Assembly: GCA_025980765.1 (NCBI GenBank)
Contig: JAICXB010000020.1
Location: 1 to 64,000, forward strand
Direction of reading: 5' to 3'
Source: Terriglobales bacterium
GTDB lineage: Bacteria > Acidobacteriota > Terriglobia > Terriglobales > Acidobacteriaceae
Length of the DNA: 64,000 nt
The translations under genes and the position numbers were made by a program. This document shows, in pieces, positions 28,654 to 31,834 of this stretch. Position 1 is the stretch's first letter, and every line of letters starts with the position of its first letter. Below the pieces are notes generated by a model, which was not told where the DNA came from, ran no database searches, and saw only the letters and a program-made list of their open reading frames with translations.

Positions 28654-29187
28654 TCATCTCGCTTCGAGGAGCTTTTTCACCTCGTCTTCAACCGTTTTTG
28701 TGTATTCGAAGCCAATGACCTTCTTGCGCAGTATTCCGCGCCGATCATAGAGCAGCGTCGTTGGCAAGCCTTCAATGCCGCCAAACTTCTTGATCAGCCC
28801 GTCGGTTGCCACGACCAGCGGATAATGAACGCCGATCTTCCTCGCAAAGCTGCGCGGGTCCTCGGTGTCTGCCATGGTGTTGAGCTTCAGACCGACCACA
28901 GCGAAGCCGCGCCTTCCATATTGCTCTGCCAGCCTCTGATAACCAGGCATTTCCTGCTTACAGGGCTGACACCAGGTGGCCCAGAAGTCGATGAGGACTA
29001 CTTTTCCCCGGAGATTGGCTGAGGAAATTCGAGCGCCGTCAAGATCCTCGGCGGAAAACGACGGCAGCCGCGAGCCGATCTCTCCCGCAGCGACCCTCGT
29101 CTTTTTTTCAGGAGAACTTAATCGGGACTGGCAGGCTCCTGCCAGCGCGACAGTGATGCACAACAGCAGAACAAATCGGCTGAACAT
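28654..29187 (-). CDS. TlpA/ResA-type thioredoxin, envelope-anchored
   Basis: This 177-residue thiol-disulfide oxidoreductase has an N-terminal hydrophobic segment ending LAGAC, which could be a lipobox. The redoxin fold shows GKVVLIDFWATWCQPCKQEMPGYQRLAEQYG, with active-site CxxC (WCQPC) near residue 75, and the cis-Pro loop GLPTTLLYDRRG. Its ATG directly follows the TAA of the HMA protein gene with no gap, so the two are translated from one mRNA. By position it could reduce the selenenyl or disulfide form of that protein; this is inference. It is the last gene of the operon starting at 31105. Confidence 0.9.
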   Translation of the reverse strand: MFSRFVLLLCITVALAGACQSRLSSPEKKTRVAAGEIGSRLPSFSAEDLDGARISSANLRGKVVLIDFWATWCQPCKQEMPGYQRLAEQYGRRGFAVVGLKLNTMADTEDPRSFARKIGVHYPLVVATDGLIKKFGGIEGLPTTLLYDRRGILRKKVIGFEYTKTVEDEVKKLLEAR

Positions 29188-29730
29188 TTATTCCTTTTTC
29201 TGCACTTCCTTGTTTTCCACCTGTAAGACCAGCAGTTGAAAAGTATTCGGAGGCTTCGGTTTCTTTTGCCCCGGTGGTTTTTTGTATAGCTGTCCTCGCA
29301 CGGTAACTTCAGTGGGCGTTCCGGCAAGAGATTCCAGTCCTTTGGACAAGTCGTTGGGCGCGAACGCAAACGACTGGCTCGGAGTCACCTGCAACGCCAA
29401 AGCGCCGGTCTGATCCTTTACGATCTTGCCGCGGGCGGTGATGTCCATCTCCGCCGCGGTGACACCGCTGTCATAGGTGGCCTTCAGAAGCTGGGCCGGA
29501 TCGATCTGCCCATCTTCCTTCGGTGTAATGTCTACTTTGCCGTCGATCAAGCTGACTTCTACATTTTGAACGCCAGACTGGCGCCCGAGGTGCTGCTTCA
29601 CCCCGTAGGCTCAAAAGTTTCAGGTCATGCCTTCGACGCGCATTTCGATGTGCTTGATCTGCGCGGTCGCGACCGGCACCACCACCGACGAGCCGAGCAG
29701 GACCAGCATTGCGAGTGCTTTGAATTTCAT
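29188..29730 (-). CDS. Secreted HMA-domain protein, probable double selenoprotein (Sec37, Sec40; UxxU)
   Basis: A signal peptide (MKFKALAMLVLLGSSVVVPVATAQ) precedes a heavy-metal-associated fold: IEMRVEGMT, TGA, N, F, TGA, AYGVKQHLGRQSGVQNVEVSLIDGKVDI. In HMA domains this motif is GMTCxxC...V; both cysteines are TGA codons here (29622-29620 and 29613-29611), in one uninterrupted frame. A C-terminal region follows (about residues 100-180, with AEMDITARGKIVKDQ and TEVTVRGQLYKKP). The reconstructed length is 180 residues. AAGGAG precedes the ATG. A SECIS-like hairpin lies at 29568-29586. Stop-codon usage elsewhere argues against a changed genetic code. The likely role is binding a soft metal or acting as a diselenol redox site in the envelope. 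Confidence 0.85.
29568..29586 (-). promoter_or_regulatory. Candidate bacterial SECIS element of the HMA protein
   Basis: On the mRNA, GGGCGCCA pairs with TGGCGTTC (8 bp including two G-U pairs) around the loop GUC, whose first base is G. The stem begins 24 nt and the loop 32 nt after the second UGA. The first UGA lies 9 nt further upstream. One hairpin serving both UGAs is conceivable. Confidence 0.6.
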
Positions 29731-29743
29731 TGCTTCTCCTTTG

Positions 29744-30748: not shown

Positions 30749-31105
30749 TCAGATTCTTAGGACAGTGGTGGAAGCACTCGGTGGCACAGGTGGAGAAGCC
30801 GCGATGACGGTATTGTTTGTGAACTGCAGTTGCCTTCCGAGGTCGGCAGCGGTGAAAGCAAGCGCTTCAGTAGCAACAAAGTTTTGTTCGCTCACGCTGG
30901 CGGTAAGCACCGCAGGTTGTGTACCAGACTGGATCTTCTCGCAGCAGGAGTGATTGCTCATATTGCTGCAAGCGCCGGCCATGGCTTTGCAACAGGCTTG
31001 CTCTGCCGCGGTTAGAGATTGGCTGAAACAACGCAAGGCAGGAGCAGCCGTCCACAGGAGCAACATCAGGACCACGAGTGTGGAGCGCGCCTTCACTTCC
31101 GCCAT
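30749..31105 (-). CDS. Cys-rich secreted protein, first gene of the selenoprotein operon
   Basis: This 118-residue product has a hydrophobic N-terminus (VKARSTLVVLMLLLWTAAPALRCFSQ). A cysteine/methionine/histidine cluster follows: EQACCKAMAGACSNMSNHSCCEKIQ (about residues 35-58). The tail is Ser/Pro-rich. Such CCxxM..C..M...CC clusters appear in small proteins beside copper-handling genes, so metal binding is plausible. It starts the leftward operon, 66 nt upstream of the barrel gene. The ATG at 31105 was chosen because the longer open frame lacks any signal peptide. Confidence 0.65.
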   Translation of the reverse strand: MAEVKARSTLVVLMLLLWTAAPALRCFSQSLTAAEQACCKAMAGACSNMSNHSCCEKIQSGTQPAVLTASVSEQNFVATEALAFTAADLGRQLQFTNNTVIAASPPVPPSASTTVLRI

Positions 31106-31255
31106 AGTATCAAAATCGATGAAAGAGCGATGGGTTCGGCCCAACCGCTGTTCCGCGCCACTACTTCCGCGTAGCAACCATCTGGCATCTCCACGACTTA
31201 TGCGAGCGTCTTGCCAAATAGACGAATTTTTTGCACAAGTTTGAAGGAGAAACAG

Positions 31256-31834
31256 ATGGCCCTGCCACAACGACGCGATGAGTTTGAGAACAATGAAGCA
31301 CAGCTTCGAGAACTGAATCGGGAACGGCTGATTGAGGCGCGCCGCAGTGCTGGCTTCGGCTGGATGTGGCTGTGGTGGCTGTTCTTTATCGTGATCATCT
31401 TTGGATGGTTCGGCGGTTGGGGCTACGGCGGATATGGCGGCTGGTGGGGTTGGGGTGGACAACGCGCCGTCCCGGTACAATCTGCGAACACAAATTCAAA
31501 CGCTATTCTCGGAGCTACTAACCGGCAGGCCTTCTTAGGAAAGAACATTGAACTTACCAACTCCCAGGTTCTACATGGAGTGAGTGACAACGTGCTCTGG
31601 GTGGGGCCGCGCGACGAGCAATCGCTTCTGGTGGTACTCAGTGGGGCCGCCAATACGACAAAGAACGCCGGAGTGGGAAATGGCGACCAGGTCAATGTGA
31701 CTGGAACGGTAGAGAAGGCGCCCTCGGCCGAGCAGGCAAAGCAGCAATGGCATCTTAATGACGATGGAGCGAAAAGGCTGGAGCAGCAGGGCGTTTACCT
31801 ATCGGCTTCGCAAGTGGAGAAGGTGAACCGCTGA
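31256..31834 (+). CDS. Single-pass membrane protein of unknown function
   Basis: This is a 192-residue product preceded by GAAGGAG. A charged N-terminus (about residues 1-33) leads into one strongly hydrophobic Trp-rich helix (WMWLWWLFFIVIIFGWFGGW) and a Gly/Trp/Tyr-rich linker. A soluble domain follows (about 95-180): GKNIELTNSQVLHGVSDNVLWVGPRDEQSLLVVLSG ... NVTGTVEKAPSAEQAKQQWHL, resembling an OB-like fold. It is divergent from the selenoprotein operon, about 150 bp away. Its function is unknown. Confidence 0.75.
   Translation: MALPQRRDEFENNEAQLRELNRERLIEARRSAGFGWMWLWWLFFIVIIFGWFGGWGYGGYGGWWGWGGQRAVPVQSANTNSNAILGATNRQAFLGKNIELTNSQVLHGVSDNVLWVGPRDEQSLLVVLSGAANTTKNAGVGNGDQVNVTGTVEKAPSAEQAKQQWHLNDDGAKRLEQQGVYLSASQVEKVNR

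Follow-up and report, generated by a model that had tools for sequence, protein, structure and literature searches.

The locus considered here raises the question of whether a gene interrupted by two TGA codons, both at the positions of metal-binding cysteines, could encode a protein containing two selenocysteine (Sec) residues, and if so what such a protein would do. The gene lies on the minus strand of the window (the whole stretch of 64,000 nucleotides that was analysed), as the complement of 29188..29730. The minus-strand frame from 29730 to 29188 reads MKFKALAMLVLLG...VEGMT-TGA-N-F-TGA-AYGVKQHL... over 180 codons. The sole in-frame TGAs are codons 37 and 40, and the gene is terminated by TAA. 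The TGAs replace both ligand cysteines of the GMTCxxC loop of a heavy-metal-associated (HMA) domain. The elements of the gene are:

29188..29730, minus strand: gene of the predicted double-selenocysteine HMA protein, 180 aa; ATG at 29730, TAA at 29190-29188
29620..29622, minus strand: first TGA (putative Sec37, first metal-ligand column of GMTUxxU)
29611..29613, minus strand: second TGA (putative Sec40, second metal-ligand column)
29736..29741, minus strand: ribosome binding site AAGGAG, 5 nt 5′ of the ATG of the HMA gene

The N-terminus of the protein resembles a signal peptide ending in ATA-Q, as judged by eye without the use of a predictor. An earlier, sequence-only reading had described the frame with its two TGAs on the ligand cysteines, the signal peptide, the ribosome binding site and the use of TGA as a normal stop elsewhere in the window. 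All of this held, the signal peptide by eye only; TGA is an ordinary terminator in the window, where it ends 17 of the 42 ORFs that were picked. That reading named no strand; 29188-29730 gives a nonsense translation from the plus strand, and it is the minus strand that carries the gene.

With cysteine in place of Sec, HMA (PF00403) is the sole Pfam domain, covering residues 30-84 with an E value of 4.6e-8 and 33.8 bits against a gathering threshold of 24.8. AlphaFold2, run on the alignment of 49 rows described below, gave a mean pLDDT of 84.9 and predicts an HMA fold with a domain rich in strands after it. Reading the predicted strands by eye, we consider that this C-terminal domain is likely to be OB-like. 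The nearest solved folds are MerP (1osd, the first match), CopZ and related HMA domains. Searches of the PDB by sequence and by fold gave HMA proteins, and the best sequence matches span the HMA part.

Conservation of the TGA codons

Two hundred genomes of the window's own family were searched with the HMA protein, and a match at E <= 0.001 was found in 52 of them. Thirty loci were fetched from this search and sorted by hand, giving close UxxU forms in nine genomes (own included), UxxC forms in nine and CxxC forms in five. The remaining matches were weaker; those read are other HMA proteins, and most were left unread. Scanning the contigs of named genomes gave 18 loci, all from Acidobacteriota metagenome-assembled genomes (MAGs), of which four repeat genomes already in the set. 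A profile search of the phylum (396 genomes, E <= 1e-15) matched 22 genomes. It contributed six more UxxU loci, which are divergent and belong to other families of Acidobacteriota (L097, L099, L100, L101, L102 and L108), and four UxxC loci (L094, L095, L111 and L113). The totals are 29 UxxU and 13 UxxC loci, with 10 CxxC rows in the 49-row alignment that have cysteine at the same two columns. On plasmids there was a single partial HMA match, with 34% identity across 51% of the query.

In the close subfamily GMT-TGA-N-F-TGA-AYGV is present in all 23 distinct UxxU loci (window included), and none of the 23 has another in-frame stop in a block of 119 codons (that of L053 is shorter, being cut by the end of its contig). 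Five columns of the 49-protein alignment are invariant. Two of these are the Sec/Cys columns, which in the 49 aligned rows hold TGA or Cys codons and nothing else. The sequence-only reading had suggested aligning homologues to see if TGA alternates with Cys codons at exactly these two columns. This held for the wider relatives, where Cys/Sec exchange is seen, and not within the close UxxU subfamily, where no Cys form was found. The frame after both TGAs is under purifying selection; 3′ of the second TGA the mean dN is 0.12 and the mean dS 1.14 for 22 full-length rows (231 pairs, nine of them saturated), i.e. a dN/dS of ~0.11.

Some loci were excluded from these counts. L066-L069 are duplicates (of L047, L048, L046 and L049) and were dropped from the subfamily, neighbourhood and selection counts, while L061 falls outside the motif pattern and so is missing from the subfamily TGA comparison and from the clustering of neighbours. 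L053 was left out of dN/dS and of the counts of synonymous sites. The 49-row alignment omits L051, L053, L058, L093, L104, L107, L110 and L024. Two kinds of candidate were rejected on inspection. A weak match in genome G012 (L032) with one TGA and one TAA is an ordinary CPMC protein, the stops lying beyond its end. The terminal TGA of two MerA-like sequences (L131 and L132) at first resembled a C-terminal Sec, and reads as an ordinary stop.

A maximum-likelihood tree built from the 49 proteins has a branch that separates the 27 UxxU rows from all the others (support 79/80, present in 82% of bootstrap trees). On the same tree UxxC requires three changes and CxxC four. The deep placements are unsure owing to long branches.

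Selenocysteine machinery and RNA hairpins

The source genome is a MAG of 95 contigs that is 83.8% complete. The sequence-only reading had called for a search for the Sec machinery, and most of this was found: SelB and SelD are over cut-off, and there is a tRNA-Sec with anticodon TCA. selA was not found in this incomplete MAG. A tRNA search of the window alone gave no match. Within the family sample, all eight of the other UxxU genomes have selA over cut-off, and so do eight of the nine UxxC genomes (the one without, G073, is 68% complete), as against none of the seven CxxC genomes, where five genomes of a single genus gave no match and two gave weak matches. With the source genome included this amounts to 16/18 Sec-form genomes versus 0/7 CxxC genomes (one-sided hypergeometric ~7.5e-5, uncorrected for kinship, which is strong). 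Among genomes outside the family, five of the six with UxxU have selA (the exception, G444, is 72% complete), as do all three with UxxC. The gene is also present there in five of six genomes with TGA-less matches (G438, G427, G426, G534 and G284; G273 has a fragment only), so TGA-less HMA proteins also occur in genomes that use Sec.

We note that the selD gene of the source genome (L083, G000:C90:13166-14089, minus strand) itself carries an in-frame TGA, followed by a hairpin. We take this TGA to be at the usual catalytic Cys/Sec position. SelD here is probably itself a selenoprotein, although this is inferred from sequence alone.

Two potential hairpins follow the second TGA of the HMA gene:

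29587..29604, minus strand: hairpin I (GGGGUG AAGCAG CACCUC), separated from the second TGA by 6 nt; no SECIS G in the loop
29568..29586, minus strand: hairpin II, the SECIS candidate (GGGCGCC AGUCU GGCGUUC)

Hairpin I directly precedes hairpin II, which starts 24 nt after the second TGA. From the loop of hairpin II the distance is 31 nt to the second UGA and 40 nt to the first. In a published model the bacterial SECIS has a loop of 3-9 nt, a stem of 4-16 bp and an MFE <= -7.5, a G in the first two positions of the loop (pattern N1 G[G/U] N N2), and a distance from UGA to loop of 16-37 nt (PMC13188914). Applying these rules without bSECISearch, hairpin II meets those for loop and stem, with 7-8 bp and -11.3 kcal/mol in the window. 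The distance from the second UGA is inside the range, and that from the first is outside. By its fit to this model, hairpin II is likely to be a bacterial SECIS for the second UGA at least. To this extent the earlier proposal, that a hairpin 24 nt after the second TGA has the form of a bacterial SECIS, held; the first UGA is out of range.

The loop of hairpin II is AGUCU; three rows have AGGCU instead, and the distant rows UGGAA or UGGAU. Of 27 distinct rows, 22 have A-U as the N1-N2 pair and three have U-A, and in two these positions are unpaired. Covariation in the stem is weak, with a two-sided change in one of eight pairs and four of the eight invariable. The synonymous sites of codons +13..+18 are frozen, with an identity of 1.0 compared with 0.565 expected over five conserved codons; none of 20,000 resamplings was as high. 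Codons -14..-1, which precede the TGAs, likewise show raised synonymous conservation (p 0.005), as do codons +4..+12 to a weak degree (p 0.036), with no rise further downstream. Compared with codon-preserving shuffles, hairpin II alone shows no excess stability in the subfamily (median p 0.08, with 0/23 rows below 0.05), and in the distant UxxU rows p is below 0.05 in four of six.

Hairpin I is far more stable than its codon-preserving shuffles, with a mean z of -3.9 in the subfamily and p < 0.05 in 23/23 subfamily rows and in 5/6 distant rows. Where GGG is replaced by GGT, as in four rows, the pairing is shifted by one, and in all four the third position of the partner codon is A or G. This position is C in 18 of the 19 GGG rows (Fisher 5.6e-4 versus the GGT rows, kinship uncorrected). 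Hairpin I is poorly resolved by RNAalifold in the mixed alignment, where its register is one base apart in the subfamily and the distant rows; we judged it by the codon-preserving shuffles instead.

The UxxC rows have a different hairpin, CACGC-CGUGC-GCGUG, with G at position 2 of the loop and lying 17 nt after the sole UGA. Its sequence is present in 12 of 13 rows (L113 is the exception), and the hairpin was found in the minimum-energy fold of six of the eight rows of the first set that were folded. The sequence is lost in both of the CxxC rows compared. Rfam gave no match in the window at gathering thresholds. With both the Rfam and tRNA searches of the window empty, the case for a SECIS rests on comparison.

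How might a single element direct recoding at both UGAs? In a bolder reading, hairpin I would act as a collapsible spacer. With the first UGA in the ribosomal A site hairpin I would be folded, removing 18 nt, so that the SECIS loop would effectively be ~22 nt away and not 40. When the second UGA is decoded the ribosome would have melted hairpin I, and the loop would then be 31 nt away, again within the accepted range. The idea fits the extra hairpin in the UxxU genes and its absence from the UxxC genes, but it remains an inference with no experimental data. Taken jointly, one SECIS serving both UGAs through a collapsible spacer and a periplasmic diselenolate trap, in an unrecognised CxxC/UxxC/UxxU family of Acidobacteriota, is no more than a possibility. 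The arrangement of two hairpins after closely spaced UGAs makes the recoding of two neighbouring stops testable by a simple reporter.

The operon and the possible metal ligand

The HMA gene is flanked on the same strand by three others:

28654..29187, minus strand: TlpA/ResA-like thioredoxin-fold protein (WCQPC); its ATG directly follows the HMA stop codon
29744..30718, minus strand: outer-membrane beta-barrel-like protein; no Pfam match, assigned by eye
30749..31480, minus strand: ORF of a small Cys-rich secreted protein; the likely true ATG is at 31105 (by eye); C-terminal LRI

The order Cys-rich secreted protein, outer-membrane-like protein, HMA protein and TlpA constitutes a conserved operon. 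The outer-membrane-like gene is upstream of the HMA gene in 33/33 clustered loci, and the gene of the small Cys-rich protein is found further upstream in 27 of the 33. The TlpA/ResA-like gene follows the HMA gene in 22 of the 23 subfamily UxxU loci, the remaining one being cut by the end of its contig; in L097 and L099 it is upstream. In the UxxC and CxxC loci a small LCCALP membrane protein takes the place of TlpA (9/10 clustered).

Several further features of these neighbourhoods were observed. The Cys-rich secreted protein ends in L/I-R-I in 27/27 copies (window and 26 relatives) with varied codons. This is a conserved C-terminal tripeptide of unknown purpose, and only its conservation is shown. 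Of the LCCALP family encoded downstream of the HMA gene (L054-L064), none of the three members run reached a Pfam cut-off; the sole member run against NCBIfam matched MerT-type models weakly (E 6.5e-4). In G549 (L123, G549:C87:46100-47640) tandem HMA paralogues, one UxxC and one CxxC, flank an LCCALP membrane-protein gene.

The best explanation that we can offer is that the gene encodes a double-Sec protein for the capture of soft metals within an envelope module, and we regard this as likely. The frame, the TGA columns, the Cys/Sec exchange, the selection, most of the Sec machinery, the hairpins and the operon are shown by sequence alone, while the insertion of Sec, the export of the protein, its metal, the relay and what TlpA does are inferred, without protein or metal data. 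In this model two Sec residues would be inserted at the in-frame UGAs by SelA, SelB, SelD and tRNA-Sec, directed by a SECIS hairpin within the coding sequence downstream. The exported, presumably periplasmic, HMA-plus-OB-like protein would capture a soft, thiophilic metal ion at a diselenolate site. The metal would then be passed within the envelope module comprising the Cys-rich secreted protein, the outer-membrane-like protein and TlpA, and the TlpA thioredoxin may keep the selenols reduced. The sequence-only reading had listed Hg, Cu and Ag as candidate metals, and held that a diselenol would change both metal affinity and redox behaviour; the latter claim remains an inference with no experimental data.

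The metal itself is not shown, and the window is uninformative on this point. Handling of a soft metal is likely; we place mercury first by a small margin, with copper or silver next. The UxxC locus L095 is followed by a MerR whose score of 150.6 bits is the best among metal-regulator models and falls just below the cut-off of 150.85 for mercury MerR, and the CxxC locus L112 is followed by MerT (PF02411, E 6.3e-18). The MerR-type gene adjoining L094 does not discriminate between metals. MerA is over cut-off in two of the 32 genomes tested, neither of them of the window's family, and in 0/23 of the genomes tested from that family. No MerT match was found among the neighbours scanned in the window, and no member of the LCCALP/MerT-like cluster lies near the 23 UxxU loci. 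The locus in the window does not meet the criterion for a mer operon (MerT and MerA with a MerP-like gene).

In genome G286 a UxxU HMA gene lies in an apparent mercury island (L121, L122 and L118; G286:C16:54000-65200). This stretch contains genes of MerR type and genes resembling MerT and MerC, none of which reaches an NCBIfam cut-off, with a MerA over cut-off ~6.5 kb from the UxxU gene. Its regulator scores 135.6 with MerR and 128.3 with CueR, a less clear preference than that of L095.

Alternative explanations and previously predicted selenoproteins

The most serious alternative concerns the metal. Copper or silver, rather than mercury, could be the natural ligand of a periplasmic Cu(I)-handling module, and we consider the balance to lie slightly against this. 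In its favour, the window protein scores higher with CopZ models than with MerP (47.2 and 40.9 versus 33.4 bits, all below cut-off), and when the family profile is compared with PDB chains CopZ is slightly above MerP, the multi-domain copper ATPases being highest. In fold, CopZ and MerP are about equally near. Additionally, by eye, L108 is downstream of the apparent end of a P-type ATPase with an HMA domain, and there is an RND efflux-like block near the G549 locus. Against it, the L095 regulator fits mercury MerR best, and that of G286 prefers MerR over CueR, if less clearly, with MerA in the same region. A different function is proposed in the redox alternative, where a double selenoprotein would use an HMA scaffold as an oxidoreductase or a sensor of oxidants, its UxxU cycling with TlpA between the diselenide and diselenol states. 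The position of TlpA, directly downstream in 22/23 subfamily UxxU loci and upstream in L097 and L099, would be consistent with this, and a redox role is assumed for most families of prokaryotic selenoproteins (PMC9312934). However, the HMA fold is nearest to those of MerP and CopZ, some relatives are near MerT, MerR or MerA genes, and in nine of ten UxxC and CxxC loci TlpA is replaced by the small membrane protein. We therefore regard a redox function as unlikely.

The remaining alternatives dispute the presence of Sec. If the TGAs were true stops, the gene would give a truncated leader peptide or be in decay. The failure to find selA in a MAG that is 84% complete and the normal use of TGA as a stop in the window could be cited in support. 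But both TGAs are kept in 29 loci, homologues have Cys codons, and Sec machinery is present. A decaying gene, a sequencing error or a short leader peptide is very unlikely, because the TGAs are conserved across loci at invariant columns, with a dN/dS of 0.11 after the second TGA and no further stop in the 23 subfamily blocks. Finally, UGA might be read as some other amino acid, through a changed code or a suppressor tRNA, and the frame would indeed be open under any code in which UGA is a sense codon. This is all but excluded by the 17 of 42 picked ORFs that end in UGA, the presence of tRNA-Sec (TCA), SelB and SelD, and the restriction of both columns to TGA or Cys codons in the 49 aligned rows. 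The earlier view that code reassignment is unlikely thus held. There is good support for reading the protein as a double selenoprotein of UxxU type, and the observation behind this reading is confirmed, with the insertion of Sec being inferred.

The sequence-only reading knew of no characterised example, and this requires correction, since UxxU HMA selenoproteins have already been predicted and named as a kind (NF041115 and NF045683). A UxxU metal-binding protein (putative mercuric reductase) with two Sec residues is tabulated in PMC13188914, and corresponds to NF041115, UxxU_metal_bind. Like the window protein this has an HMA domain with UxxU for CxxC and two Sec. However, its model has 74 positions, of which the window protein matches only 1-47, scoring 35.5 bits against a curated cut-off of 95. 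Among 17 relatives the best E value with this model was 1.2e-14; a score of 47.4 bits corresponds to an E value of 1.6e-12, so none can reach 95. Beyond what NF041115 covers, the window protein has a putative signal peptide, a probable OB-like domain at its C-terminus and an operon of its own. NF045683 (MerT_CopZ_Se) is also a selenoprotein of heavy-metal-transport type with an HMA part, but it is a MerT/CopZ fusion model of 235 positions, and the window protein matches only the C-terminal part (31.4 bits versus 375). A Sec-containing MerP, and thus a MerP-type protein predicted to contain Sec like that of the window, was reported for the Global Ocean Sampling set as a table row with no motif given (PMC2398784); the sequences were not compared.

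Among the proteins with cysteine ligands, periplasmic Hg-binding MerP (TIGR02052) provides the first fold match of the window protein, which misses its curated cut-off with 33.4 bits against 92.55. MerP is exported and consists of one HMA domain, after which the protein ends; its GMTCxxC loop provides Cys ligands. The CopZ and TIGR00003 copper chaperones share the HMA fold and ligand loop, but the window protein is below all of their cut-offs. These chaperones have neither a signal peptide nor a second domain, and their ligands are cysteine. Within the library of papers that we searched, none was found to name an HMA-plus-OB-like family with UxxU, UxxC and CxxC forms.

The window protein reaches no curated NCBIfam selenoprotein cut-off, so genes of this kind are probably annotated as truncated, although that is an inference. 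The locus adds a probable family of double selenoproteins to soil Acidobacteriota. The predicted metal-binding protein of this operon occurs with no, one or two Sec ligands, which constitutes a natural series, and because this CxxC/UxxC/UxxU series exists, the benefit of selenium in the capture of metals is measurable on native sequences.
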